Source: Caballeronia sordidicola
GTDB lineage: Bacteria; Pseudomonadota; Gammaproteobacteria; Burkholderiales; Burkholderiaceae
NCBI RefSeq assembly: GCF_001544455.2
Contig: NZ_FCOC02000003.1
Location: 248,001 to 312,000, forward strand
Length of the DNA stretch: 64,000 bases
Reading direction: 5' to 3'
The notes under the pieces were generated by a model, which ran no database searches, was not told where the DNA came from, and worked only from the letters and a program-made list of their open reading frames with translations. Below are positions 11,259-43,288 of the stretch, in pieces (positions within the stretch are counted from its first letter, which is position 1; the number at the start of each line of letters is the position of its first letter). Position numbers and translations under genes: made by a program.

Positions 11259-12881
11259 TCAGGCATGTCCGCGAAATAACGCGCACATTCTGAAGGCCTC
11301 TTCGGAAAGCGGAATCTCTTTGGCGCGACAATAGCGCGTTGTGAGCTTGAGGAGTTCCTTGACGTCTCGTCCGCTTGCGTTCGGATAAGTTCGTGACAGC
11401 GCTTCAATTAGATCGTTATTGAGATCCGCGCCCAACTGCTCGCCAAGCAATTTCCAAAGCAGAATCGCGTCCGGTGGCGACGGCGTTTCATACTGTATTT
11501 TCGCAATGCAACGAGACAGGATGGCGTCGTCTACATCGTCCACACGATTGGTCGTCATGAAAAGCAGACCATTAAAATATTCGAGCGTACGCAGGAATTC
11601 CGCCACGATAGCGTTGTGTTCCAGATCGTTGTCCCGGCGCCGGATATAGACGTCGGCCTCATCCAGAAGCAGGATGGAATCCCAGCGTACCGCGCGCTGC
11701 AGAATGCCGGACAAGGACGCGCCGACCGACGCCGCCGAAGTGCCCAACTGCCCGGAATGCACACGGTACAGCGGCTTGCCCACCACTTCCGAATAGACCT
11801 CCGCAGTCAGCGTCTTGCCAAGCCCTGGCGCTCCCTGGCAAAGAATCGTCGTGCCGCTCGACTTGCCCGGCACAAAGTCCTGTACGAACACGCGATTTTT
11901 CGAAGTCAGAATGTCGATCAGATCGCGATGATGTTTTGGCAGCACCAGCTTGTCGCGCAATTCAGGCTGATACCGATATTCGGTGATGTGCTGCACATGT
12001 ACCCATATATTTCGATGCCACTCGAGATGAAACAGGTACACGTAGCAATGCAGCGGCACTTTCTCGAATCCCGTCTCGACGTTCGCGCTGCGCCAGAAGG
12101 CGGCGTCGGCCATCATCTGGAAGCGGCGTTCAAGCATTTCTTCGTCATTGATGCACTTCGCGCTGACGCCTTCGACAATACGCGCGAGTTGCGCAACACC
12201 CTTTGCATCGACTGTGAACGCGGCCTTCGAAATGACGAACTGCGCGCCAAAACGCGGCTGAATTTTAAGGAAGCGCTGCGCATGTTGCTCGTATTCACGC
12301 TTGAATTCCGGGCATTCCTTATAAAATCCAAACTCGGCCAGCAGTTCCGGAATGGTGCGGTTGACTATGTCGTGACGGTTGATAACCAGTGAAGTTGTCA
12401 TGCCCGAAAGACGCATCTGCGGATCGGTACGTTCCGAGTTGGCCGACTGCATGGTGTTGGCCATCATGTCGACAACCACATAGGGGGCGCCCTGCTCGGG
12501 TTCGACATATCGCATGCGGTGCACGAGCCATGGCAAGAGCGTGCCGTCCTTGGCGCGACGGTATAACCAGCCATCGATCACGTCGCGGGAAAGATACGCG
12601 ATAAGACCCGGCACGGTTTGATCGAGTGCGGGAATTGTGCGAGCGTGCGGCGCGTTATAGATGTTGTCGAGCGCAAGCATCTGGAACATCAGCGCGCTTT
12701 CGTTATTCGCCTTGCTCAGAGAATAAAGCGTATTCAGCGACTTCGAATCGAACAGCTTGCTCGACACAAGCATGTTGCCATGACATACACCGTGCTCGTT
12801 CAATTGTCTTGCTAGCGGCGACTCGGATTCGATCATTGCAAGCAAGGGGTGAACCAGTGATTCGGGTATTTCGAAGTCCAT
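11259..12881 (-). CDS. AAA+ ATPase with a long unrecognised N-terminal region
   Basis: A 540-residue protein. The C-terminal AAA+ module is complete: Walker A GAPGLGKT at 350-357, Walker B ILLLDEAD at 403-410, sensor-1 Asn445 in FMTTNR, an arginine-finger candidate Arg457 in LSRCIAKIQY and a sensor-2 GRDVKEL near 504. The first 330 residues match no domain I recognise; they have no signal peptide or membrane segment and are rich in His/Met/aromatic patches (LHCYVYLFHLEWHRNIWVHV). A GGGAG site precedes the ATG. It lies 51 bases downstream of an alpha/beta hydrolase on the same strand. A remodelling or disassembly role on a partner protein is likely but unproved. Confidence 0.8.
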   Translation of the reverse strand: MDFEIPESLVHPLLAMIESESPLARQLNEHGVCHGNMLVSSKLFDSKSLNTLYSLSKANNESALMFQMLALDNIYNAPHARTIPALDQTVPGLIAYLSRDVIDGWLYRRAKDGTLLPWLVHRMRYVEPEQGAPYVVVDMMANTMQSANSERTDPQMRLSGMTTSLVINRHDIVNRTIPELLAEFGFYKECPEFKREYEQHAQRFLKIQPRFGAQFVISKAAFTVDAKGVAQLARIVEGVSAKCINDEEMLERRFQMMADAAFWRSANVETGFEKVPLHCYVYLFHLEWHRNIWVHVQHITEYRYQPELRDKLVLPKHHRDLIDILTSKNRVFVQDFVPGKSSGTTILCQGAPGLGKTLTAEVYSEVVGKPLYRVHSGQLGTSAASVGASLSGILQRAVRWDSILLLDEADVYIRRRDNDLEHNAIVAEFLRTLEYFNGLLFMTTNRVDDVDDAILSRCIAKIQYETPSPPDAILLWKLLGEQLGADLNNDLIEALSRTYPNASGRDVKELLKLTTRYCRAKEIPLSEEAFRMCALFRGHA

Positions 12882-12932
12882 CAGTACACTCCCGTTGCGT
12901 TTGTCCGTAACCGGCCAACACCGGTGCGCTCG

Positions 12933-13634
12933 CTATTTGAGGAAGATTTGGATCGCCATGTTCACAACTGCCGGCTGGATTGCGTGCAAGCCGTTGAACT
13001 CGATGTACTGCACGTCGTAGCCCGCCGCCCTTAGCTTGGCGGCATTCGCGCGGCCGCTGGTTTCAATGGGCAATTGCTCGTCGCTCAAGCCATGCGCTAT
13101 AAAGACTTCCGGCGCGCCTTCCTGCATGAAGACCGACATGAAGCCACCGGAAAATGCGATCACGTGACTCGCAATATCGCCATTCGTAATGCCAATCGAC
13201 AAAGCGTAACTCGCGCCGTCAGAAAACCCCCCAAAGGCGAGATGACGACGATCGATCCGGTAATGCGACGCGACTTCCTCGAGTGCTTGTTGCAGGCGCT
13301 CGAGGTCCGGACCGCTGCCGCCAATCACGATGTCCCACGTTGCAAACATGGAATGAGGTGCGAGGATCAGGAATTTGTCGCGCTCGGCATGCTCTTCGAT
13401 GAAAGGCAGCACCTTCTCCGGGAAGCCGCCCGCTCCATGGAACATGATGAACAGCGGGACTTCCTGAAGCGCGTCGAGCCCGGTTGGCACGAACAATACG
13501 GCATCGCGCTCGCCGGATATCTGAAGCCGGTTGCGGCCCGGCGGCAACGGGTCTTTGCCGGGCTCGGCAGGCGAGAACGAGAGACGGCCGAACAACGAAG
13601 GATCGAGCATTGCGAGACCTGATGACGTCCTCAT
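12933..13634 (-). CDS. Alpha/beta hydrolase (PHB-depolymerase/carboxylesterase-like)
   Basis: A 233-residue predicted serine hydrolase. The oxyanion segment FIMFHGAGGFP is near residue 62, the nucleophile elbow GFSDGAS near 135, an acid candidate in HGLSDEQLP and the catalytic His in FNGLHAIQP near the end. The GFSDG elbow (GxSxG) resembles phospholipase/carboxylesterase and extracellular PHB-depolymerase relatives, but no signal peptide is evident, so it is probably cytosolic. No strong ribosome site was seen before either candidate ATG (13634 or 13610). It is followed after 51 bases by the AAA+ ATPase, suggesting a joint function. Confidence 0.8.
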   Translation of the reverse strand: MRTSSGLAMLDPSLFGRLSFSPAEPGKDPLPPGRNRLQISGERDAVLFVPTGLDALQEVPLFIMFHGAGGFPEKVLPFIEEHAERDKFLILAPHSMFATWDIVIGGSGPDLERLQQALEEVASHYRIDRRHLAFGGFSDGASYALSIGITNGDIASHVIAFSGGFMSVFMQEGAPEVFIAHGLSDEQLPIETSGRANAAKLRAAGYDVQYIEFNGLHAIQPAVVNMAIQIFLK

Positions 13635-13650
13635 GAAAAATCGAAAGCAC

Positions 13651-13667
13651 TGATATGTAATATATCA
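13651..13667. promoter_or_regulatory. AT-rich inverted repeat upstream of the hydrolase, candidate operator
   Basis: TGATAT and ATATCA flank a 5-base spacer GTAAT, 17 bases upstream of the hydrolase ATG. The AT-richness stands out and a -10-like TATATT overlaps it on the minus strand. The cognate regulator is not known. Confidence 0.45.
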
Positions 13668-13731
13668 CCAATGCATTTCGATCGACAAGCGTGACATCGC
13701 ACCGGAAAGGGTCGGTGCTGAAGTTGTCGGA

Positions 13732-14469
13732 TCAGGTAGTGAGTGGACGTAACGCCTGGCCGCGTTCCGTGATCAGCGAATCGAAGTCGCTGAGTTGTGA
13801 GAAACGCACGGCCTTGACCTTGCCCATCTTGCTGGTATCGATGACCAGATGCTTTTCTACCGCGCTCGCCATCGCGGCTTGCTTGATCGCCACTTCGTGA
13901 AAATTCCAGCACGTCACACCGCGCATTTCGTCAACGCCACCCGCAGACATGAACGCCTTGTTGATGCCCATGCGCCTGACCGTCTCGATGCTTTCCTCGC
14001 TCGCGAACGAATCCGACGACGGGGCATAGACGCCGCCAAGCAGGATCATCCGCACATTGGACTTTCGCCGCAGGATCTCGGCGACGTTGAGTGAATAGCA
14101 GACCACGGTGAGATGCAATTCGGCCGGGATCATGCGCGCGAAAGAGGTCAGCGTCGTGCCGCAATCGATGAAAATTGTTTCGTTGTCCGTTACAAGCCGA
14201 ACCGCCGTTGCGGAAGCTTCCACTTTCGCCTGAGCGAAGTGGTCCTTCTCCTCGTCAATGGTATAGCCCGGATTGATCGTATGATTCGGTACGTCCGAAG
14301 TCCGCACGATGTAACCACCGAGGTACGTGAACACGCCGGGGCTCGCGGCAATATCGCGACGCACTGTCATCTCCGACACATCCAGCAGCGTCGCCGCTTC
14401 GCGCAGACGCAACACGCTTTGCTCGCGCAGCGTCTCGGCAAGCATACGCAGTCGTTCGTTCTTGGTCAT
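13732..14469 (-). CDS. DeoR-family transcriptional regulator
   Basis: A 245-residue DeoR protein with the N-terminal winged helix (about 1-55; REAATLLDVSEMTVRRDI contains the helix-turn-helix) and a C-terminal sugar-phosphate sensor domain (DCGTTLTSFARMIP near 108, LLGGVYAPSSDSF near 150). Such proteins usually repress sugar catabolic operons and respond to a phosphorylated intermediate. It is the last gene after ATPase, permease and binding-protein genes on the same strand, 125 bases beyond the binding protein, and most likely controls that importer. Confidence 0.9.
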   Translation of the reverse strand: MTKNERLRMLAETLREQSVLRLREAATLLDVSEMTVRRDIAASPGVFTYLGGYIVRTSDVPNHTINPGYTIDEEKDHFAQAKVEASATAVRLVTDNETIFIDCGTTLTSFARMIPAELHLTVVCYSLNVAEILRRKSNVRMILLGGVYAPSSDSFASEESIETVRRMGINKAFMSAGGVDEMRGVTCWNFHEVAIKQAAMASAVEKHLVIDTSKMGKVKAVRFSQLSDFDSLITERGQALRPLTT

Positions 14470-29883: not shown

Positions 29884-30422
29884 TTTTCTTCTCCTTCGGG
29901 TTGGACAGGTCGAGCGAGCAGTTCTTTTCGTTGTTGCTTACAGGCTCCGTGCGGATTGGCGGAAAACACGGGAAACGTTTTCAGTACCACGACTGAAACA
30001 TGGCCGATATACGCCAACAAGGCGGATTTCCCCGTGCAATCACGGCGGATCCAGCGGAGCGTTCCTCCGGGCCGCCTGGATCGCCGCCAACAGCAATTTA
30101 GGAAACCAAATTAGCGGCGTCTTGGCAGTTCGTCGCATTGGGGATGCGCATTTCGGCACAGCATGGCTCGGCCGCCTGAAAGTCACGTTTGGGATGAAAT
30201 GCCCGTCCGCGTTGATGGGATCTTGCGCAACGTCAATGCGAACACGCGCGCGGTTGGCCGATGATTGAAGATTGCGGCACAACGTGGTGGCGTTGCTGAA
30301 GAATCCGTAACGCCGCGCAAAATCGTCGTATCTATCTAAAGCATTACGGATTTATTTCACCCCATCCGCCATGGATTTTGAGAAGAACGGATTCTGTAAT
30401 GTGCATATCGACCGCATGTAAT
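29884..30422. other. Intergenic stretch between LivK and the porin operon
   Basis: About 540 bases upstream of the porin promoter. Three short frames overlap here but none has a ribosome site, codon usage or motif that I can support. Apart from the LivK leader on the minus strand, no gene or repeat stands out. Confidence 0.5.
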
Positions 30423-30428
30423 TACAAT
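30423..30428 (+). promoter_or_regulatory. Candidate -10 of the porin/iron operon
   Basis: TACAAT matches TATAAT at five of six positions. A weak -35 (TGTGCA at 30400-30405) lies 17 bases upstream. The Fur box overlaps its 3' edge, so a repressor here would cover the start of transcription. Confidence 0.5.
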
Positions 30429-30444
30429 GAGAATCGTTCTCGTT
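30426..30444. promoter_or_regulatory. Fur box (ferric uptake regulator site)
   Basis: AATGAGAATCGTTCTCGTT contains the exact GAGAA-N3-TTCTC core and resembles the AATGAGAATNATTCTCATT form of Fur sites. It lies 128 bases before the porin ATG and overlaps its -10. This is the strongest regulator site in the window. Confidence 0.85.
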
Positions 30445-30571
30445 TATGTTGACGACAGCATGCGGGGTCGATACGATTTGCTCGCCGGCGCCGTATGGCT
30501 GAGAACAATCAATGCGGCGCCCGCGCCCGTCAAGAGTCGCAACGGCGTCCGCAACAAGCAAGAGGATTCCG

Positions 30572-32071
30572 ATGCAACCCGTCCAACCCGACACGCGCGA
30601 TTACAACGCGCCACTGCGCTTGGCCTCCAGATGCCCCGCGCCTTTGCGGCGCGCCTTGTTGGGCGCATGGCTTGCACTGGCTTCATCGGCGGCAATGGCG
30701 GCTGGCGCGCCCGTCAATCCGGATGCCACGCCCACGGACGCGCCCGAGGCCGACCTGAACATCCAGGCGCAGCCGGCCGGGCAGTGGACGGGCGTGTGGA
30801 CCCGTTCGACCTTGCTTGGCGACATGGGCGGCATCCGCTCGTTTCTGGGTAAATACGGCGTGTCGCTGCAGGCGACCGAAACGTCGGAATACCTGGCGAA
30901 CGTGCGCGGCGGGCTCAAGACCGGAGGCACCTACGATGGCCTGACCACGGTCACGCTCGGCCTCGATACCCAAAAGGCCATCGGCTGGGAAGGCGGCACG
31001 TTCAACGCGAGCGCGCTGCAGATTCATGGCCGCAACCTGAGCCAGTACAACCTGGGAACGCTCAACACGGCGAGCGGCATTGAAGCGCAGGACACCACGC
31101 GTCTCTGGGAACTCTGGTATCAGCAGTCGTTCTTGAACAAGCGCGTGGACGTGAAGATCGGGCAGCAGAGCATCGACCAGGAATTCATGGTCAGTTCGTA
31201 CGCAGCTACCTTCGTGAACACCATGTTCGGCTGGCCCGGCTTGCCGTCCTACGACATGCCTTCGGGCGGTCCCGCGTATCCGCTGTCCGCGCTCGGCGTG
31301 CGGGTGCGCGGACAGATCACGCCGTCCCTGACTGCGCTGGCCGGCGTGTTCGACGGCGATCCGCTCGGCAACAACCCGAACAATCTCAGCGGCACGAATT
31401 TCAACCTGCATAACGGCGCGCTGTACATAGGCGAATTGCAATATGCAATCAACCAGCCGTCCGATGGCGAAATGGTCGGCGTGCCGCAAAGCGGTTTGCC
31501 GGGCACGTACAAGATTGGCGTCTGGTACAACAACGAACGTTTCGACGATCAGGGTATCGACAACACCGGCCTCTCGCTCGCCGATCCAGCCAGCAGCGGG
31601 ACGGCGCAATCGCATCGAGGCAACTACAGCTTCTATGCCGTCGCCGACCAGATGATCTGGCGTCCGGACCCCGACGAACCACGCAGCATTGGCGTGTTCG
31701 CGCGCGTGATGGGCGCGCCCGGCGACCGCAATCTCGTGAGTCTTTCCGCGAACGCGGGCATCGTGACGAAAGCGCCGTTCAAGGGCCGTGATTACGACAG
31801 CGTCGGCATTGGCCTCGCGTATATCAAGGTCGGCAATCACGTGCATGACCTCGACGCGCAGAGCGCGGCTTTCAGCGGCGGCCCCTACGGTGTGCGCACC
31901 AGCGAAACGGCGCTCGAAGCCACCTATCAGTATCAGGTCACGCCGTGGTGGGTTCTGCAGGGCGACCTGCAATACACCTTCAATGCAGGCGCGGGCCAGA
32001 ATCCGAACGACCCCACCGCGCCCTTGCGCAATACCTTCGTGGTCGGCGTGCGCACCACCATTACTTTCTGA
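30572..32071 (+). CDS. OprB-family carbohydrate-selective porin
   Basis: A 499-residue outer-membrane porin. I start at MQPVQPDTRDYNAPL with AGAGGA upstream; a 20-residue longer ATG (30572-60) has no such site. After a long n-region, the signal segment LLGAWLALASSAAMA leads to a beta-barrel with the usual landmarks: GDMGGIRSFLGKYGVSLQ, DTTRLWELWYQQ, VDVKIGQQSIDQEF and the C-terminal aromatic VVGVRTTITF. OprB porins normally pass glucose-like sugars. Here the gene is Fur-controlled and first in an iron operon, so a chelate or reducing compound may be its cargo. It is 18 bases ahead of the next gene. Confidence 0.9.
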   Translation: MQPVQPDTRDYNAPLRLASRCPAPLRRALLGAWLALASSAAMAAGAPVNPDATPTDAPEADLNIQAQPAGQWTGVWTRSTLLGDMGGIRSFLGKYGVSLQATETSEYLANVRGGLKTGGTYDGLTTVTLGLDTQKAIGWEGGTFNASALQIHGRNLSQYNLGTLNTASGIEAQDTTRLWELWYQQSFLNKRVDVKIGQQSIDQEFMVSSYAATFVNTMFGWPGLPSYDMPSGGPAYPLSALGVRVRGQITPSLTALAGVFDGDPLGNNPNNLSGTNFNLHNGALYIGELQYAINQPSDGEMVGVPQSGLPGTYKIGVWYNNERFDDQGIDNTGLSLADPASSGTAQSHRGNYSFYAVADQMIWRPDPDEPRSIGVFARVMGAPGDRNLVSLSANAGIVTKAPFKGRDYDSVGIGLAYIKVGNHVHDLDAQSAAFSGGPYGVRTSETALEATYQYQVTPWWVLQGDLQYTFNAGAGQNPNDPTAPLRNTFVVGVRTTITF

Positions 32072-32089
32072 TCGACGGGACTCGTGAAC

Positions 32090-33250
32090 ATGAACTTCAA
32101 TGCACGCACCCGGAACACTCGCATGAAAACACTTATTGGCGCGATCGCGCTTGCGGGCGCGGTTGTTGGCTCGATTGCAGGCTCTGTCGCGCATGCGGCG
32201 CCTATCGGATTTCTCGAAACGCTGCACAGGAACACCACGCTCATCAACACGGTGCCGTCCAACGGCGACCAGAATCCCTACGCGGTCGTGGTCGCGCCGG
32301 TCTCGAGCGGGACCGTGAAGCAGGGCGACGTGCTAGTCGGCAACTTCAATAACGCCGCGAACCTGCAGGGCACCGGCAGCACCATCGTCAACTATCACCC
32401 GGACACCAAGGAACTGAGCTTGTTCGCGACCGTGCCGCGCGACCTGAAGGGTTGCCCGGGCGGAATCGGCCTGTCCACCGCAATGACCATGCTGAAGTCG
32501 GGCTGGGTAATCGTTGGCAGCACGCCGAGCAACGACGGCACGACCAATACCAAGGGCGCGGGCTGCCTGATCGTGCTGGATAACCAGGGCAAGGTCGCAT
32601 CGACCATCGTGAGTCCTAACATCAACGATCCATGGGGCAACATGGCGGTCGTCGACAACGGCGACCACGCCACGCTCTTCGTGAGCAACGCGGGCTTCGG
32701 CGTGGGCGGCGCGGACGGCACGCCGCCGCCGGTCTTCAAGCAGGCGACCATCCTGCGTCTCGACCTCGATATTCCCGAAGGCCGCGCGCCGGTCGTCAAG
32801 CAGGAAACGGTGATTGCAAGCGGCTTCGGCGCGCAGGCCGATAAAGGCGTGTTCCTGATCGGGCCGACAGGACTGGCCTTGTCGCAGGATCAGAAGTTGT
32901 TGTACGCGTCGGACGCAATCGGCAACCGCGTGACGGAAATAGATGACCCCATGACACGCGATACCAGCGCAGGCGTTGGCCGCCAGTTGACCGCCGATGG
33001 TTTCCTGCATCGTCCGCTCGCCATGGTGACCGCGCCCAACGGGCATTTGCTCGTCACGAACGCGTTGAACGGGCAGGTGGTCGAGATCGATCCGTCGACG
33101 GGCAAGCAACTGTACGCGCGCTGGATCGATACCGACAAAGCGCAATCGCCGCCGGGCAACGGTGACTTGTTCGGCATTGCGCTGACACCGGAGGGCGACG
33201 GTTTCTATTACGTGCAGGACGACGTGAACACGCTGGTTCTGGCGAAATAA
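32090..33250 (+). CDS. Secreted beta-propeller (NHL/WD40-like) protein
   Basis: About 386 residues, exported through a signal peptide ending near SVAHAAPIG. No domain name is certain, but the mature protein shows propeller blades: repeated strand units ending in xxIDP or xxLDL, for example GLALSQDQKLLYASDAIGN and AMVTAPNGHLLVTNALNGQ, together with VVDNGDHATLFVSNAGFG. I used the ATG at 32090; a GTG at 32084 or ATG at 32123 is also possible. It is 38 bases ahead of the peroxidase and in the Fur-controlled operon, so it may hold or present an iron complex or the peroxidase. Function is unknown. Confidence 0.78.
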   Translation: MNFNARTRNTRMKTLIGAIALAGAVVGSIAGSVAHAAPIGFLETLHRNTTLINTVPSNGDQNPYAVVVAPVSSGTVKQGDVLVGNFNNAANLQGTGSTIVNYHPDTKELSLFATVPRDLKGCPGGIGLSTAMTMLKSGWVIVGSTPSNDGTTNTKGAGCLIVLDNQGKVASTIVSPNINDPWGNMAVVDNGDHATLFVSNAGFGVGGADGTPPPVFKQATILRLDLDIPEGRAPVVKQETVIASGFGAQADKGVFLIGPTGLALSQDQKLLYASDAIGNRVTEIDDPMTRDTSAGVGRQLTADGFLHRPLAMVTAPNGHLLVTNALNGQVVEIDPSTGKQLYARWIDTDKAQSPPGNGDLFGIALTPEGDGFYYVQDDVNTLVLAK

Positions 33251-33288
33251 CGAGCAACGGGTAACAAGCAACAAGGCAGGGCGACATC

Positions 33289-34560
33289 ATGGCAAACGAT
33301 CAGGATCCACCACGCCGGCGCTTCTTGAAAGCGGGCGTTGCAGCGGGCGCGGCATTGGGCGCGGGTTCGGTCGCACACGCGGCGACCAAGGCGCAGTTCA
33401 GGCAACCCATCGACCCGATGACCGTGGTCGAGCCGTTTTTTGGCGAGCATCAGGCGGGTATCGTGACGCCGCAGCAGAGCCACACTTACGTGGCCGCGCT
33501 CGATCTCACGACCGACAAGCGCGACGACGTCATCAACCTACTCAAGCAATGGACCGATGCGGCGGCCCGCATGTCGCGCGGCGAGACGGCAAAACCGCTG
33601 CCCGCCGACGATAAATCCGCGCCCGATTCCGGCGATATCCTCGGCATCGGCGCGGCTGGCCTGACAATCACGTTTGGCTTCGGCCCGGGCATGTTCGAAC
33701 ACGAAGGCCGCGATCGCTACGGCATTGCAAAGCATCGGCCGGCCGCGCTCGTCGATCTGCCGCGCTTCAACGGGGATCAGTTGCTGCCGCAGAAAACCGG
33801 CGGCGACATTCTTATTCAGGCTTGCGCGAACGACGCACAAGTCGCGTTCCACGCGGTGCGGCAACTTGCACGCATGGGTTACGGCGCGGTCGCGATGCGT
33901 TGGGGGCAGGCCGGTTTTCTCTCGGGACCGCGCGGACAAACGCCGCGCAACCTGATGGGTTTCAAGGATGGCACGAACAATCCGTCGACGGCGCAGCCCG
34001 CGTTGATGAACCAGTTCGTCTGGGCCAATGCGCCCGACGCACCATGGATGAACGGCGGCACGTACACGGTCGTGCGGCGTATCCGCATCACCATCGAGCA
34101 CTGGGACCAGATGGAGCGCGGGTTTCAGGAGCAGGTCATGGGCCGGGAGAAATACAGCGGCGCGCCGATTGGCAAGAAGAACGAATTCGACGCGCTCGAT
34201 CTCGACGCCGCCGATAAGGACGGCAACCCCGTGATCCCTGACAACTCGCACGTGCGCTTGTCGAATCAGGCAACGAACAAGGGTGCGCAGATCCTGCGCC
34301 GCTCGTATTCGTACAACGACGGTACGGATTTTTATATAGAACGCTGGCCGCCGTGGCGTCAGGAAACCGAGTACGACGCGGGGCTGATTTTCATCGCGCA
34401 CCAGAGCGATCCGCGCACCGGCTTTATTCCGATCAACGACCGGCTCGCGAAGTTCGACATGATGAATCAGTTCACCACACACGTAGGCAGCGGCGTGTTC
34501 GCGTGCCCGCCAGGCGCGCGGCCGGGATCGTTTATTGGTGCTGGATTGTTTGAAGCCTAG
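33289..34560 (+). CDS. DyP-type heme peroxidase with Tat signal (EfeB-like)
   Basis: A 423-residue peroxidase. The N-terminal RRRFLKAG at residues 9-16 is a Tat signal, so folded, heme-loaded protein would reach the periplasm. The DyP hallmark GFKDGTNNP is at 224-232 with Asp227; proximal heme ligand His321 (DNSHVRLSN) and distal-side arginine (ILRRSYSYNDG) follow. EfeB, its closest functional relative, oxidises Fe(II) or frees iron from heme in E. coli. Position directly before a ferric-iron binding protein and downstream of a Fur box supports an iron role. Oxidation of dyes or phenols is an alternative. Confidence 0.88.
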   Translation: MANDQDPPRRRFLKAGVAAGAALGAGSVAHAATKAQFRQPIDPMTVVEPFFGEHQAGIVTPQQSHTYVAALDLTTDKRDDVINLLKQWTDAAARMSRGETAKPLPADDKSAPDSGDILGIGAAGLTITFGFGPGMFEHEGRDRYGIAKHRPAALVDLPRFNGDQLLPQKTGGDILIQACANDAQVAFHAVRQLARMGYGAVAMRWGQAGFLSGPRGQTPRNLMGFKDGTNNPSTAQPALMNQFVWANAPDAPWMNGGTYTVVRRIRITIEHWDQMERGFQEQVMGREKYSGAPIGKKNEFDALDLDAADKDGNPVIPDNSHVRLSNQATNKGAQILRRSYSYNDGTDFYIERWPPWRQETEYDAGLIFIAHQSDPRTGFIPINDRLAKFDMMNQFTTHVGSGVFACPPGARPGSFIGAGLFEA

Positions 34561-34632
34561 TCGTCAGCAACGGGCAATGCCGCTCGAATGCGACGCCGCT
34601 CAACGTCAAAAAACATAACAGGAACGAATGCA

Positions 34633-35658
34633 ATGAAGACCACACGCTCCATGACCGCACTGCGTGCGCTATGCGGCCTCGCGGTGCTGTCCGCGTCCGC
34701 CGCGCTGCCGCTCAGTTCGGCCGCCGCCACGCTGACCTTGTACAACGCGCAGCACGAACAGGTCGTGGCGGCGCTTGCCAGGGACTTCGAGGCCCAAAGC
34801 GGCGTGTCTGTGAAGATCCGCAACGGCGAAGGCCCGGCAATGGCCGCGCAACTCGTTGCCGAAGGATCGGCTTCTCCCGCCGATGTCTATTTCACCGAGA
34901 ACTCGCCCGAACTCGTGCTGCTCGACGAAAAGGGCTTGCTCGCGAAAACGGATGCGTCCACGCTCGCCGTGATCCCTTCACGCTTCAACTCGCCGCAGGG
35001 CGACTGGGTCGGCGTGCTCGCGCGTGAGAACGTGCTGGCCTACAACACGAAGAAGGTCGATGCGGCGCAACTGCCGGCGTCGCTGATGGATCTTGCCAAG
35101 CCCGAGTGGAAGGGCCGGGTCGGCATTGCGCCGAGCGACGGCGATTTCCTGCCGGTCGTGAGTGCGGTCATCGCCATGAAGGGTGACGAACAAGCGCTGC
35201 AATGGCTCAAGGGCCTGAAGAAAAACGCGCAGATCTTCGATGACGACGAAGGTGTGGTCGCGGCCGTGAATCGCGGCGGCGTGGCGACGGGCGTGGTCAA
35301 CAACTACTACTGGGCGCGCCTGCACACGCAACTCGGCGACAGCGCCACGCGCAGCGCCATCTATCACTTTGGCAATGGCGATGTGGGCGCGCTCGTGAAC
35401 GTATCGGGCGCGGCGGTGTTGAAGTCGAGCAAGAACCAGCAGGCCGCGCAGCAGTTTCTGGCTTATCTTGTCAGCGAGCGGGCGCAGGAACTGATTGCGA
35501 AGGGCAAGATTGCCTATGAATATCCGCTGCATGCAGGCGTTGCGCCGGACCCGATGCTCAAGCCTTTTGAGCAGTTGAGCCCGCCGTCGCTGAGCATTGA
35601 ACAACTCGGCGACGACAGCAAGGCTGCAAAGCTGATGCGTCAGGCCGGCTTGCTGTAA
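34633..35658 (+). CDS. fbpA: Ferric-iron periplasmic binding protein (FbpA/SfuA/FutA type)
   Basis: A 341-residue exported binding protein starting MKTTRSMTALRALC; the signal ends near SSAAATL. Iron-binding features of transferrin-like FbpA are visible: a histidine in LTLYNAQHEQVV (His41), and the paired tyrosines Tyr225/Tyr226 in VVNNYYWARL, which coordinate Fe(III). AGGA lies upstream of the ATG; an upstream in-frame ATG (34588) is out of place. It is 72 bases after the peroxidase and 4 bases before the permease. It should carry Fe(III) freed in the periplasm to FbpBC. Confidence 0.92.
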   Translation: MKTTRSMTALRALCGLAVLSASAALPLSSAAATLTLYNAQHEQVVAALARDFEAQSGVSVKIRNGEGPAMAAQLVAEGSASPADVYFTENSPELVLLDEKGLLAKTDASTLAVIPSRFNSPQGDWVGVLARENVLAYNTKKVDAAQLPASLMDLAKPEWKGRVGIAPSDGDFLPVVSAVIAMKGDEQALQWLKGLKKNAQIFDDDEGVVAAVNRGGVATGVVNNYYWARLHTQLGDSATRSAIYHFGNGDVGALVNVSGAAVLKSSKNQQAAQQFLAYLVSERAQELIAKGKIAYEYPLHAGVAPDPMLKPFEQLSPPSLSIEQLGDDSKAAKLMRQAGLL

Positions 35659-35662
35659 GCGC

Positions 35663-37315
35663 ATGAGCGATGCCGTGAACGCCGCTGCAATGCCGGCGTT
35701 GCCCGCGCGCCTTGGCCGCAAACGTGCGCCACGGGGTTTGCTTGTTGCGGCGGGAGCCTGCGCGTTGCTCGTGCTGATGCCGCTTGCGTTCACGGTCTAT
35801 CGTGCGGTGACGTTTGGCTGGGACGACGCGCTTGAACTGATCTTCAGGCCGCTCGTTGGCGAGTTGCTGATCAATACGTTATCCATAACAATTTGCGCGA
35901 CGCTGGTCTCGGCGATTGTTGGCACGGCGGCGGCATGGTTTATAGAACGAACGCGCGTGCCTGGAAGACGGATCTGGGCCGTGCTCACTGTTGCTCCGCT
36001 TGCCATGCCCGCGTTTATCACAAGTTATGCGTGGGTGTCGTTGAGTCTGGATCTGCAGGACTTTGCGGGTGCGCTGCTCGTGATATCGACGGCATATTTT
36101 CCTTTGGTTTATTTGCCCGTTGCTGCGGCACTGCGCGGCATGGACCCGGCGCTCGAAGAAAGCGCGCGATCGCTCGGATGCGGACGTGCAGGCGTTTTCT
36201 TGCGCGTGGTGCTGCCGCAATTGCGGCCCGCGCTGCTTGGCGGCATGCTGCTTGTCGCGCTCGGCGTGCTGTCGGAATTCGGCGCGTTCACATTGCTGCG
36301 CTTTCGTACCTTCACCACGCAGATCTACGCTGAATATCGCACGAGCTTCGATAGCAGCGGCGCTTCGGTTTTCGCCTGCATCCTCATAGCGATGTGCCTG
36401 CTCTGTCTCACGCTCGAAATGCGCGTGCGCGGCGGCGCGCGTTATGAACGGGTGGATCGCGGGGTTCGCCGCGCGGCCTTGCGTTACGAACTTGGCCGCG
36501 GGCGATGGATTGTCGCGTCAGGTTTCGCCGCGCTGGCCGTGGTCACGCTGGGCGTGCCTATCGGCATGATTGGATTCTGGCTGACGCAAAGCGGCGCTGC
36601 CGCGATCACGCCGGCCGAAGTCTCTCCGGAATTGTTGCTGGAGTCGACGTTGGCGTCGCTAAGTTACGGGTTTGCTGCGGCTATCGTCACCACGCTCGCG
36701 TGCGTGCCGCTGGCGTTTTTGCTCGTGCGCTTTCCGAGTCGTCTCGCAACCCTGTTCGAGCGCACCGTGTTCCTCGCGCAAGGCTTGCCAAGCCTCGTGG
36801 TCGCGTTGGCAATCGTGTCGCTGGCGGTTCATGCTTTGCGGCCGCTGTATCAAAGCGCGACCTTGCTGGTCGTGGCGTATGCCATCCTGTTTTTGCCGCT
36901 GGCGCTGGTGAGCGTGCGCGCCGCGTTCACGCAGGCGCAGCCGCGGCTGGAAGACACTGCGCGCTCGCTTGGCCTGAACTGGCGAGAAACCGTGCGGCGC
37001 GTGCTGCTGCCGCTCGCCGGTCCAGGCCTGGGCGCGGGCGCGACGATGGTCTTCATCTCGGTCGTCACCGAACTCAACTCCACGCTGCTGTTATCGCCAA
37101 TTGGCACGCGCACGCTCGCCACGCAAGTCTGGATCGATACCTCCACGCTCGCGTTCGCCGCCGCCGCGCCGTATGCCGCGTTGCTGGTCGGAATCTCGCT
37201 GCTGGCGTCGGGAACGTTGTTCGCCTTGCTCGGACGATCCGCCGTCGCGGGCCGTGCCACCGGCATCAAGGCAGGCGTCCAGTTCAATTCGCAGGCCGGT
37301 TCGCCGTCAGATTAG
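35663..37315 (+). CDS. fbpB: Ferric-iron ABC transporter permease (fused duplicated FbpB)
   Basis: A 550-residue inner-membrane permease made of two homologous halves, as in FbpB/SfuB. Each half has about six helices and an EAA loop: ALEESARSLGCGRAGVFLRV near residue 165 and RLEDTARSLGLNWRETVRR near 435, which contact the ATPase. It lies 4 bases after fbpA and 9 before fbpC. It should form the channel for ferric ion. The fused length is normal for this family. Confidence 0.93.
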   Translation: MSDAVNAAAMPALPARLGRKRAPRGLLVAAGACALLVLMPLAFTVYRAVTFGWDDALELIFRPLVGELLINTLSITICATLVSAIVGTAAAWFIERTRVPGRRIWAVLTVAPLAMPAFITSYAWVSLSLDLQDFAGALLVISTAYFPLVYLPVAAALRGMDPALEESARSLGCGRAGVFLRVVLPQLRPALLGGMLLVALGVLSEFGAFTLLRFRTFTTQIYAEYRTSFDSSGASVFACILIAMCLLCLTLEMRVRGGARYERVDRGVRRAALRYELGRGRWIVASGFAALAVVTLGVPIGMIGFWLTQSGAAAITPAEVSPELLLESTLASLSYGFAAAIVTTLACVPLAFLLVRFPSRLATLFERTVFLAQGLPSLVVALAIVSLAVHALRPLYQSATLLVVAYAILFLPLALVSVRAAFTQAQPRLEDTARSLGLNWRETVRRVLLPLAGPGLGAGATMVFISVVTELNSTLLLSPIGTRTLATQVWIDTSTLAFAAAAPYAALLVGISLLASGTLFALLGRSAVAGRATGIKAGVQFNSQAGSPSD

Positions 37316-37324
37316 TAAAACTCC

Positions 37325-38365
37325 ATGAGCGAACTCCGCGTCACGAGCCTCACCAAATCATTCGATGGTCAACCCGTGCTCCACGGCGTGGATTTATCGG
37401 TGGAAAAGGGGACGTTGCTGGCCCTGCTCGGACCTTCGGGCAGCGGCAAAACCACCTTGCTGCGCGTGCTGTGCGGTTTCGAACGCGCCGATGGCGGCAC
37501 GGTGGAAATCGATGGCGTGCGCGTCGCCGGGCCGGGCGTGCATGTACCGTCCGAAGCGCGCCGCATTGGCTACGTGCCACAGGAAGGCGCGCTTTTTCCG
37601 CATCTTTCGGTCGCCGATAACATCGTCTTCGGTTTGCCGCGTGCGCAGCGGCGGGCGCGGTATCGCGTGGACGAGCTGTTGGCGCTGGTCGGTCTGCCCG
37701 CCGCGTATGGCGAGCGCGCGCCGCAGGCTTTGTCGGGTGGCCAGCAGCAGCGCGTTGCGCTGGCGCGCGCATTGGCGCCGTCGCCGTCGCTTGTGATGCT
37801 CGACGAGCCGTTTTCCTCGCTCGACGCCGCGTTGCGTATCGAGACACGCGAGGCCGTGGCAACCGCGCTTGCCGCGACCGGCGCAACCGCCGTGCTGGTC
37901 ACGCACGATCAGTCCGAGGCGTTGTCGCTCGGGCGCGAGGTCGCTGTGTTATGGCAGGGGCGGCTCGTGCAGATGGACACGCCGGAAGCGGTGTATCGGC
38001 GGCCGGTGTCGCGGGAGCTGGCGAGTTTTGTCGGCGATGCGGTGATCGTGCCGGGATCGGTCATTCCCGGCGACTCGACGCATGTGCGCTGCCAATTCGG
38101 AACGTTGCCCATTGCGTGCTCAATCGACGCAGGCGCGGTGGACGTGATGATTCGCCCGGAGCAAATCCGTATCACGGACGATGGCGAGGTCCATGCGAGC
38201 GTCGAAAAAGTCGTGTTCTACGGACACGATGCCAGCGTCATGCTGCGTTCCGACGCGGGTTCGCACGTGCTGCAGATTCGCGTGGCGGGGCATTCGTATC
38301 CGCGCGTGGGCGAGCGCGTGGCGCTTTCGGTAGAAGGCGATGTGGTGGTTTATCCGGGGATTTAG
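37325..38365 (+). CDS. fbpC: Ferric-iron ABC transporter ATP-binding protein
   Basis: A 346-residue ATPase: Walker A GPSGSGKTTL near residue 37, signature LSGGQQQRVALARAL near 137, Walker B LVMLDEPFSSLD near 158 and H-loop LVTHDQSEA. A C-terminal TOBE-like regulatory domain (about 245-346: VDVMIRPEQIRI, then a second beta region) is characteristic of FbpC and can serve as an iron or metabolite brake. It is the last gene of the Fur-controlled operon; the next promoter, for the MarR gene, starts 35 bases on. Confidence 0.92.
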   Translation: MSELRVTSLTKSFDGQPVLHGVDLSVEKGTLLALLGPSGSGKTTLLRVLCGFERADGGTVEIDGVRVAGPGVHVPSEARRIGYVPQEGALFPHLSVADNIVFGLPRAQRRARYRVDELLALVGLPAAYGERAPQALSGGQQQRVALARALAPSPSLVMLDEPFSSLDAALRIETREAVATALAATGATAVLVTHDQSEALSLGREVAVLWQGRLVQMDTPEAVYRRPVSRELASFVGDAVIVPGSVIPGDSTHVRCQFGTLPIACSIDAGAVDVMIRPEQIRITDDGEVHASVEKVVFYGHDASVMLRSDAGSHVLQIRVAGHSYPRVGERVALSVEGDVVVYPGI

Positions 38366-40668: not shown

Positions 40669-40900
40669 ATCGATAAATTCGATCAGCGTGATGTAACCCG
40701 CCAAGCCTTCACGACGAACTAGCTAATAGAAGCGCTTGAATGCGGTTTTCATGCACAAAAACATTTTCACTCCGCCAGGGATTAAACCCGCGTCAGAGGT
40801 GTTTGCGTGTTTGTTAGCACGTTCGGGTATCCAGATCGACACGAATCCGTCCATAGCCGGACGGGAATGCTTGGCAGTGAGTCTTGTTAAGGAGCACATC

Positions 40901-41416
40901 ATGACCACCAGACGCCGGTTTTTATTTGCAGGCAGCGTGTTGGCCGCTGCTACGTTCGCCACGCTGAGGCAACGCAACGTGCTGGGCGCGAGCGCGGCTG
41001 ACGCGGGAAATACAGCCGAATCCTTCGAAGTTGTGCATACCAGCGATCAGTGGCGCGACCTGCTTACATCGGCGCAATACGACGTGCTGCGGCGCGAGGG
41101 CACGGAGCGGCCTTACAGCAGCGCGCTGAATGGCGAGCATCGCAGCGGCATGTTTTCGTGTGCGGGATGCCAGCTCGACGTTTTTTCGTCACGCACGAAG
41201 TTCGAAAGCCACACAGGCTGGCCGAGCTTCTGGGCGCCGCTCGATCATGCGGTCGCGACCCGCGAGGATCTGTCGTTCGGCGTGTCGCGGACGGAAGTTC
41301 ATTGCCAGCGCTGTGGCGGCCATCTTGGCCATGTCTTCGAGGACGGTCCTAAACCTACCGGACTTCGCTATTGCATGAACGGCGTAGCGATGAACTTCAA
41401 ACCGGGTTCTGCCTGA
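40901..41416 (+). CDS. msrB: Exported methionine-R-sulfoxide reductase B
   Basis: A 171-residue MsrB with a Tat-like signal RRRFLFAG at residues 4-11, so it would act on oxidised methionine in the periplasm. The four zinc cysteines Cys87/Cys90 (SCAGC) and Cys135/Cys138 (HCQRC), the HTGWPSFW substrate loop and the catalytic Cys158 in RYCMNGVAMNF are all there. AAGGAG lies 9 bases before the ATG. It ends 69 bases before the DipZ start, in the same orientation; DipZ is the likely electron source. Confidence 0.93.
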   Translation: MTTRRRFLFAGSVLAAATFATLRQRNVLGASAADAGNTAESFEVVHTSDQWRDLLTSAQYDVLRREGTERPYSSALNGEHRSGMFSCAGCQLDVFSSRTKFESHTGWPSFWAPLDHAVATREDLSFGVSRTEVHCQRCGGHLGHVFEDGPKPTGLRYCMNGVAMNFKPGSA

Positions 41417-41485
41417 GTGCTTCGAGCGCGGCCTGATTGCGGCCTGATTGCCGCAAAACCCCTGAACTTCGAGATCCTCCAGCTC

Positions 41486-43288
41486 ATGCTGCTCATCATC
41501 CTTGCTTATCTTGGCGGCGCGCTCACTATCCTGAGCCCGTGTATCTTGCCTGTCTTGCCGTTCGTCTTCTCGCGGGCGGATCAGCCCTTCGTGCGCAGTG
41601 GCCTGCCGTTGCTGGCCGGCATGGCGCTGACTTTCGCGGCCGTGGCAACGCTCGCGGCGGTCGGCGGCGGCTGGGTGACACAAGCCAACCAGTACGGCCG
41701 CTGGCTTGCGGTCGCGTTGCTTGGCGTCTTCGGCCTGACCTTGCTGCTGCCAAGCTTCGCCGAGCGCGTGATGCGCCCCTTCGTGAGCGCGGGCAACCGT
41801 CTCACTGAATTTGCACAGGCCGACGGGCAACAGGTCCGCGCAGGGTCATCGTTCTTGCTTGGCATCGCGACCGGATTGCTGTGGGCGCCCTGTGCCGGCC
41901 CGATTCTCGGACTGGTCCTGACCGGCGCGGCGTTGCGTGGCGCAAGCGTCGGTACGACCTTGCTGCTCGCAGCCTATGCGGCAGGCGCGGCAACGTCGCT
42001 TGCGGTCGCGTTGCTGATCGGCGGCCGCGTGTTCGCCGCCATGAAGCGGTCGCTGGGCGCGGGCGAGTGGATTCGCCGCGGTATCGGCGCTGCGATGCTG
42101 CTTGGCGTGGTCGCTATAACGCTGGGACTCGATACCGGCGTGCTCGCGCGTGTCTCGACCGTCGCAACGGGCGGACTTGAGCAAAAGCTGGTCGATCGTT
42201 TTTCGCCGGCATCGGCAACCAGACCAGCATCCGCCGATACCGACAAATCCGCCGACGCAGCAGGCACGAGCGCAAATCCGCCCGCCATGATGCGCGCAGC
42301 CGCCACGTTCGACGTCCCGCTGCCTGTGGAAGGCCAGTTGCCGCCGCTGTCGGGGGCGGTTCAATGGCTCAACTCGAAGCCGCTTGACGCGCAGGACTTG
42401 CGCGGCAAGGTCGTGCTTGTCGACTTCTGGACGTACTCGTGCATCAACTGCCTGCGTTCGCTGCCGTACGTGAAGGCGTGGGCGCAGAAATACCGCGATA
42501 AGGGGCTCGTCGTGATCGGCGTGCACGCGCCCGAGTTTGCGTTCGAGCGCAACGTCGATAACGTCAAGCGTTCCGTGCATGATCTCGGTATTGACTATCC
42601 GGTGGCTATCGACAACGACTACGCCATCTGGCGCGCGTTTGGCAACCAGTACTGGCCGGCGCATTATTTTATCGATGCAAAAGGGCAGGTCCGCTTCCAC
42701 CACTTTGGCGAAGGCGATTATGCGCACTCCGAAGAAGTGATCCAGCAGCTATTGAAAGAAGCCGGCCATACGGATGTTGGCCCGGCGACAAGCGCGACCG
42801 ACGCCAAAGGCGTGCAGCAAGCCGCCGACAATGCCGACATGAGGTCGCCGGAGACCTACGTGGGTTACGAACGCGCCGAGAATTTCGCCGGGCGCGGTGG
42901 CGAGTCGCATGATGCGGTTCACACCTACGCCGCGCCGGCCACGCTTTCGTTGAATGATTGGGGATTGGGCGGCGCGTGGAAAGTGGGCGCTGAGGAAGCG
43001 TCGCTGGCGGGATCGAAGGGAACGATTGTGTATCGATTCCACGCGCGGGATTTGCATCTCGTGCTGGGACCGGGCAAGGACGGCAAGCCCGTGAAATTCC
43101 GCGTGACGATAGACGGCGCGGCTCCCGGCGATGCGCACGGCACGGATGTCGCCGCCGACGGCACGGGCACGGTGACGGACGAGCGGCTTTATCAGCTCGT
43201 GCGGCAGCCGGGCGACGTGAAAGACCGCACGTTCAGCATCGAATTCCTGGAGCCGGGCGTGCAGGCTTATGCGTTCACGTTCGGTTGA
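41486..43288 (+). CDS. dipZ: DipZ: CcdA-type membrane domain fused to thioredoxin-like domain
   Basis: A 600-residue protein with three parts. Residues 1-220: CcdA/DsbD-like membrane domain with reactive Cys19 (SPCILP) and Cys136 (WAPCAGP). Residues 280-420: periplasmic thioredoxin-like domain with Cys319-x2-Cys322 in WTYSCINCLRS. Residues 455-600: a beta-rich carbohydrate-binding-like domain known from Mycobacterium DipZ. The ATG at 41486 begins the first helix (MLLIILAYLGG); a GTG at 41417 would add a non-membrane stretch. It should move electrons from cytosolic thioredoxin to periplasmic partners, MsrB being the closest candidate. Confidence 0.9.
   Translation: MLLIILAYLGGALTILSPCILPVLPFVFSRADQPFVRSGLPLLAGMALTFAAVATLAAVGGGWVTQANQYGRWLAVALLGVFGLTLLLPSFAERVMRPFVSAGNRLTEFAQADGQQVRAGSSFLLGIATGLLWAPCAGPILGLVLTGAALRGASVGTTLLLAAYAAGAATSLAVALLIGGRVFAAMKRSLGAGEWIRRGIGAAMLLGVVAITLGLDTGVLARVSTVATGGLEQKLVDRFSPASATRPASADTDKSADAAGTSANPPAMMRAAATFDVPLPVEGQLPPLSGAVQWLNSKPLDAQDLRGKVVLVDFWTYSCINCLRSLPYVKAWAQKYRDKGLVVIGVHAPEFAFERNVDNVKRSVHDLGIDYPVAIDNDYAIWRAFGNQYWPAHYFIDAKGQVRFHHFGEGDYAHSEEVIQQLLKEAGHTDVGPATSATDAKGVQQAADNADMRSPETYVGYERAENFAGRGGESHDAVHTYAAPATLSLNDWGLGGAWKVGAEEASLAGSKGTIVYRFHARDLHLVLGPGKDGKPVKFRVTIDGAAPGDAHGTDVAADGTGTVTDERLYQLVRQPGDVKDRTFSIEFLEPGVQAYAFTFG

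Follow-up and report, generated by a model that had tools for sequence, protein, structure and literature searches.

An operon joining an OprB porin, a beta-propeller and an EfeB-class peroxidase to an FbpABC-type transporter in Caballeronia sordidicola: a candidate route for iron uptake

Typical FbpABC loci consist of three genes, each encoding a part of the transporter. In Caballeronia sordidicola a ferric-type transporter of this kind is instead joined, on one strand, to genes for an outer-membrane porin, a secreted beta-propeller and a peroxidase, which raises the question of what these additional proteins do and whether the whole set serves iron uptake. The locus was analysed within a stretch of 64,000 nucleotides, hereafter the window, which covers positions 248001-312000 of contig C3 (NZ_FCOC02000003.1) in a genome of 6.87 Mb and 72 contigs (G000); coordinates without a locus handle refer to this window. 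It is very probable that the operon serves iron uptake in some form. With moderate confidence we go further and interpret it as a Fur-repressed, TonB-independent iron importer, in which the peroxidase would oxidise or free periplasmic iron for the ferric-binding protein FbpA.

Proteins encoded by the operon

Six open reading frames on the + strand span 30572-38365 and are separated by 18, 38, 72, 4 and 9 bases in the reading-frame listing, as an earlier, sequence-only reading of this DNA had described. In order, they encode an OprB porin, a secreted beta-propeller, a DyP peroxidase of the EfeB class with a twin-arginine translocation (Tat)-type signal, a ferric-type FbpA, a fused two-domain permease and an ATPase. 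Pfam and NCBIfam matches, together with an alignment to HitA, back the OprB, DyP and FbpABC-type assignments made in that reading.

The last three genes carry the SBP, BPD_transp_1 and ABC_tran Pfam matches expected of an FbpABC-type transporter. FbpA, of a protein type that binds Fe3+, is encoded at 34588-35658 (+ strand, probable start ATG 34633), and its best solved relatives are HitA (6iwf, E 7e-86) and other ferric-binding proteins. Residues H56, E104, Y240 and Y241, numbered from the alignment to HitA and taken by us to be the iron ligands, are invariant in 79/79 rows (the window plus 78 loci, with two further loci left out because a stop interrupts the part that matches). The ferric character ascribed earlier to this transporter thus agrees with both the HitA relationship and the invariant H, E, Y, Y positions. 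The 550-residue FbpB-type permease (35663-37315, +) contains two BPD_transp_1 stretches and the FbpC-type ATPase (37325-38365, +) a TOBE_2 domain.

The peroxidase (33289-34560, +) matches the N- and C-terminal Dyp_perox domains and passes the EfeB model TIGR01412 (deferrochelatase/peroxidase) with 434.7 bits against a cut-off of 428. Its N-terminal RRRFLK supplies a twin-arginine signal, so that the Tat-exported, EfeB-type protein proposed from the letters is what the models find. D227, H321, R337 and R338 are kept in 81/81 rows and the twin-arginine pair in all 59 rows that reach it; we presume for these positions the roles familiar from DyP and Tat-exported proteins. The genome encodes two DyPs, and only the copy in the window passes the EfeB model. 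The second (L133:4197-5144, contig C14) was ruled out as EfeB-class at 59 bits against 428, and no neighbouring iron gene was seen by eye on that contig.

The porin gene (30572-32071, +) encodes 499 residues with a Sec-type signal, judged by eye. It passes the OprB domain test (PF04966, 346.6 bits against a cut-off of 22.9), matches Porin B (4gey, E 3.6e-26) and is the only PF04966 match in the genome.

The second gene (32084-33250, +, starting at GTG 32084 or ATG 32090) encodes a protein that scores above the cut-off of no family. Structure prediction returned a beta-propeller with a mean predicted local distance difference test score (pLDDT) of 76.9 and a predicted template-modelling (TM) score of 0.80, and the top Foldseek matches include Drp35 and SMP30 at a query-normalised TM-score of about 0.5-0.6 and a root-mean-square deviation of 5-6. 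The predicted fold and these matches support the earlier call of a beta-propeller. They represent general fold similarity only, and identity as an SMP-30 lactonase was not accepted since PF08450 gives 23.1 bits, below its cut-off of 26.3; a regucalcin match from residue 262 (E 0.32) was too weak to be used. Cysteines 124 and 161 are invariant. Distant propellers of 34-36% identity occur in Burkholderia arboris (L134:7001-7933) and B. stagnalis (L135:7001-7966), and the porin, DyP and FbpABC were not matched within 7 kb of either.

A conserved Fur box and promoter

A 19-mer at 30423, overlapping AATGAGAATCGTTCTCGTT, agrees with the E. coli Fur consensus at 14/19 positions. Two sites in the window reach 14/19 or more, against an expectation of 0.3 in 64 kb (averaged over 100 first-order simulations). 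Since lower-scoring sites are also commoner than simulated (31 sites of at least 12/19 against 16.3), the window by itself offers modest evidence for a Fur box, and the strict E. coli consensus with up to three mismatches has no match within it. In a published analysis, 13/19 agreement with that consensus was judged possibly functional, and a reported Burkholderia Fur box ends in a similar AAATCATTCTC (PMC4786211).

We therefore turned to conservation across related loci, using the best 80 of 305 relatives fetched by alignment of the propeller; at least two of these 80 are, judged by length, contigs of genomes G119 and G255. The Fur core pattern stands upstream of oprB in 70/80 loci, compared with six matches elsewhere in these loci in 1,585,371 bp. 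A matrix built from the 70 places eight of the other ten above all 1,888 null stretches, giving a box before oprB in 78/80 loci overall; the matrix derives from related loci and this is therefore no independent test. The two loci without a box are L036, from Candidatus Burkholderia crenata, and L058. The L058 contig begins with sequence of foreign appearance, presumably a library adaptor, which takes the place of the box region; TTGAC and TACGAT remain.

Promoters from the window and 69 loci (70 rows, with L077 left out as too short) align as GTAA-N6-TGMGAATCRTTCTCATTTRTRTTGACN-N17-TACGAT. In the window the box AATGAGAATCGTTCTCGTT occupies 30426-30444 (+, core 30429-30441), followed by a -35 element TTGACG at 30449-30454 and, after a 17-base spacer, a -10 element TACGAT at 30472-30477, whose columns (+43 to +48, counted from the core of the box) are conserved. 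TTGAC is found at the expected offset in 66/70 rows, and in all 66 the best -10 agrees at 4/6 positions. Because these aligned rows place the promoter at TTGACG/TACGAT, the box sits directly against the -35 and leaves the -10 free. The sequence-only reading had thus recognised a real and conserved box upstream of oprB and had misplaced it over the -10. A conserved GTAA (30418-30421), six bases before the TG of the box core, is present in most aligned rows and may be a second Fur unit or the site of another factor. Given the conservation of the box at this promoter, the operon is likely to be under Fur and iron control.

A separate check on the motif came from the C. sordidicola genome itself. 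The Fur motif with up to three mismatches gave 19 matches at 15 distinct sites, and none in a reversed control. Among the other 14 sites, five share their 3-kb locus with a gene for a TonB receptor or with tonB, four with a PepSY_TM-type gene, one lies at an FtrABCD-like cluster and one lies some 40 bases upstream of a hemP gene (the only site for which the distance to the gene start was measured); no iron gene was seen near the remaining three (L117, L118 and L119). This hemP gene (L139:1686-1943, contig C5) adjoins the FtrABCD-like cluster. A Fur box has been reported for hemP in B. cenocepacia, and binding by Fur in B. multivorans (PMC7377471).

Beyond the close relatives, matrix scores were compared with a null 99% level of 4.4 bits, over stretches of 570 bases (410 in the null) with nominal gene starts. 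Loci of the same family (L016-L019) score 28.2-35.5 bits, and four core loci without FbpABC reach 17.2 (L025), 27.6 (L026), 23.4 (L027) and 21.9 (L028). FbpABC-bearing loci outside the family score 5.2 (L020), 11.6 (L021) and 18.9 (L022), and L132 scores 13.0 at a position inside the nominal gene. L023 was left out, as its contig ends inside oprB.

Conservation of the gene order

All six genes are colinear on one strand in 80/80 close relatives, judged by best tblastn segments; since the order is kept throughout, it is not a feature of this strain alone, the case that the earlier reading had named as refuting its view, and the earlier suggestion to look for it in other genomes is answered in the affirmative. 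The LysR, MarR and SDR genes that flank the operon in the window are present in only 8, 10 and 8 of the 80 loci, and contig ends explain little of this, because 71/80 loci extend over 19 kb or more. Not every copy matches end to end: FbpC is matched over only 79 residues in at least one locus, and in seven loci a segment matching FbpA or FbpB contains an in-frame stop, in most cases close to one end of it, in L099 at FbpB codon 238. In L036 (253-1592) oprB is in pieces, having lost an internal part and changed frame; the other five genes match over almost their whole length. The six-gene set occurs in soil and plant-associated bacteria, and the laboratory strain Paraburkholderia xenovorans LB400 (L065) is among those with all six genes in order.

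A wider view separates the set into two parts. A search of 300 genomes of the order gave 13 with a propeller match, including the C. sordidicola genome and two with short, weak matches (E about 1e-4); the other ten carry 11 full-length propeller loci. OprB and DyP stand beside the propeller in 11/11 of these loci, and FbpABC follows in 5/11 (L018-L022). The stable unit is therefore the porin-propeller-peroxidase core, which is linked to FbpABC in part of the lineages. The view that the six genes form one set holds for the 80 close relatives and fails across the order, and an invariant six-gene unit is thereby ruled out. At class level (369 genomes, E 1e-20) the C. sordidicola genome is the sole propeller match. 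At phylum level (398 genomes, same threshold) there are four, one of them (G969) in another class; G969 has the three-gene core, with FbpABC on another contig (FbpA 62%, FbpB 59% and FbpC 52% identity). Where FbpABC does not follow, the core can adjoin other iron or metal genes. Genes for a BFD-like ferredoxin and a ferritin-like protein, for instance, lie directly before it in L024 (1440-2316).

The propeller and DyP trees fit a single gain of FbpABC (support 75/81 and 88/92), which is compatible with these trees and not demonstrated by them; on the OprB tree two changes are required, as an isolated OprB from B. stagnalis is nested within. Correlated divergence of four of the proteins over 78 loci (r 0.76-0.86) was not used, since it lacks control for the species tree.

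A proposed iron route, its rivals and known systems

From the observed gene set and order, the conservation of promoter and box, and the FbpA and DyP residues, we infer each of the following transport and redox steps. OprB would let a small iron species, either Fe2+ or a weak ferric chelate, cross the outer membrane, a role that an energised siderophore receptor usually has. In the periplasm the Tat-exported peroxidase would oxidise Fe2+ or free iron; the propeller would probably assist it, filling the position of EfeO in EfeUOB. FbpA would bind the Fe3+ so produced, for import across the inner membrane by the fused FbpB permease and FbpC. As the peroxidase's own job, oxidation of Fe2+ is a tentative assignment and release of iron from a ligand, whether heme or another, an equally tentative one; a job other than these two is only slightly less likely. 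The closest precedent for the porin step is the OprB-domain porin Slr1908 of Synechocystis, which was found to be important for iron uptake (PMC8707739).

A TonB-independent iron route had been suggested from the letters. The Fur box, the ferric-type FbpA, the EfeB-class DyP and the conserved order speak for it; the gene set needs amending, as FbpABC does not accompany the other three genes in every locus. Several observations weigh against the importer as we propose it. FbpABC is not adjacent in 6/11 order-sample loci (L023-L028), and a search of the five genomes that carry these six loci found no FbpA match in any of them; FTR1 is present in two and FeoB in one (G160), and in G078 and G033 none of FbpA, FTR1 and FeoB was matched. 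In L028 an Nramp-type gene (12512-13789) follows the three-gene core. Nramp and FeoB are divalent-metal importers, and because the core adjoins the one and co-occurs with the other, an obligatory hand-off of Fe3+ fits poorly. On the regulatory side, the box lies against the -35 rather than over the -10, the boxes of L020 and L021 are weak, and L024, a core locus without FbpABC, has no box at all (-5.2 bits). The ATPase fails the NCBIfam model for ferric ABC ATPases (NF008513, 220.6 bits against a cut-off of 496). Finally, B. stagnalis carries a lone OprB (L136:6820-8259) that is 72% identical to that of the window, with the other five genes not nearby, so that this type of OprB is not tied to iron.

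These observations bring to mind a reading in which the porin, the propeller and the peroxidase make up a portable iron-release module of the outer membrane and periplasm, so far without a name. The peroxidase would use peroxide to break iron chelates, the propeller would be a new kind of EfeB partner, and inner-membrane importers would differ by lineage, with FbpABC here and Nramp or unlinked importers elsewhere, so that neither TonB nor a siderophore receptor would be needed. We regard this reading, taken as a whole, as unlikely.

A heme route is likewise improbable. Heme would enter through a separate TonB-dependent receptor, the DyP would strip its iron by deferrochelation and FbpABC would import it, leaving the porin for small by-products. 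No heme receptor is found among the six genes, and OprB channels pass sugars, which are much smaller than heme, so that passage of heme through the porin is less likely than passage of a small iron species. The DyP nevertheless falls in the deferrochelatase family, and EfeB and Staphylococcus aureus FepB are reported to bind heme and to drive the use of heme iron together with a partner protein (PMC3577903). EfeB-class DyPs have been assigned a peroxidase role either in iron transport or in the release of iron from heme (PMC9174327).

Distinctly doubtful is an oxidation of the chelator itself, in which DyP and H2O2 would attack phenolic or catecholate iron ligands of plant, humus or microbial origin and the freed Fe3+ would pass to FbpA. 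DyPs oxidise phenolics and are broad in activity, which fits this idea; on the other side, large chelates may be unable to pass a small porin. The phenolic-acid degrader Paraburkholderia madseniana RP11 is reported to have a signal-bearing DyP among its oxidative enzymes (PMC9723775), and an RP11 contig (L058) carries the six-gene order. The reported DyP may be the L058 copy; if so, the presence of the six-gene order in RP11 means that the enzyme may belong to iron uptake. The proposed route would also carry a warning that signal-bearing DyPs of soil Paraburkholderia, where they have been taken to act on phenols or lignin, could have their role in the uptake of iron.

It is very unlikely that the DyP serves chiefly to guard against H2O2 or to break down aromatic compounds and shares only its regulation with an ordinary FbpABC: the breadth of DyP activity and a porin that could admit organic substrates would allow it, but the Fur-type promoter is conserved, the place of the DyP in the gene order is fixed in 80/80 loci and the EfeB-class model is passed.

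Among the known systems closest to the importer we propose is EfeUOB (YwbLMN, or FepABC in S. aureus). It too has an iron-regulated, Tat-exported EfeB-class DyP, together with a partner protein in the periplasm and an iron importer in the inner membrane (PMC9174327, PMC3577903). In a test in E. coli, EfeB-class DyPs were reported to function solely with their own periplasmic partners (PMC3577903). In contrast to EfeUOB, the operon lacks the FTR1 permease EfeU, none of the six proteins matching PF03239, and shows no M75 (imelysin) EfeO match in a search limited to those six; Pfam thus rules out an FTR1 or EfeO partner inside the operon. FbpABC and the beta-propeller stand in the places of EfeU and EfeO, and a porin is added. 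For comparison, the standard efeU-efeO-DyP order was observed on two plasmids. The genome has one FTR1 match, on contig C5, where it belongs to an FtrABCD-like cluster made up of Iron_transport (P19-type), cupredoxin, FTR1 and 4Fe-4S genes. Since the sole EfeB-class DyP lies in the operon and FTR1 in this cluster, the two are uncoupled in this genome. FtrABCD of Burkholderia and Bordetella resembles our proposal as a siderophore-independent iron uptake system (PMC5681537), and differs in its FTR1, P19-type and cupredoxin proteins and in forming a separate cluster here. FeoB was not found in the C. sordidicola genome, nor in G119 and G255, the three genomes of the family that were searched; according to a review, most pathogenic Burkholderia lack Feo (PMC5681537).

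With FbpABC/HitABC the operon shares the H, E, Y, Y positions of FbpA, a two-domain permease and an ATPase with TOBE. The Fut transporter of Synechocystis is also, we presume, of FbpABC type. Slr1908, suggested to be iron-selective, occurs in a cell with this ferric transporter, FutABC, but is a cyanobacterial SLH-OprB porin, and the available text of the report mentions neither a propeller nor a DyP (PMC8707739). By its gene content, then, the operon is neither EfeUOB, as it is without EfeU and EfeO, nor plain FbpABC. In agreement with the earlier remark that no named system with this set was known to that reader, we found no description or name for it in the open-access literature, most subscription journals lying outside the search, and we do not claim that none exists. 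If the proposal is right, Burkholderiaceae would have a further TonB-independent iron route, and Proteobacteria a parallel to what has been suggested for cyanobacteria, where an iron porin would supply a ferric ABC transporter. The pairing of an EfeB-class peroxidase with FbpABC rather than FTR1 also bears on whether EfeB oxidises iron or frees heme iron.

Elsewhere in the window, Rfam returned nothing at gathering thresholds over the 64 kb. Downstream of the operon, at 40736-43288, a gene for a SelR-type methionine sulfoxide reductase is directly followed by one whose thioredoxin-like product has a membrane part of DsbD type that scores below threshold.

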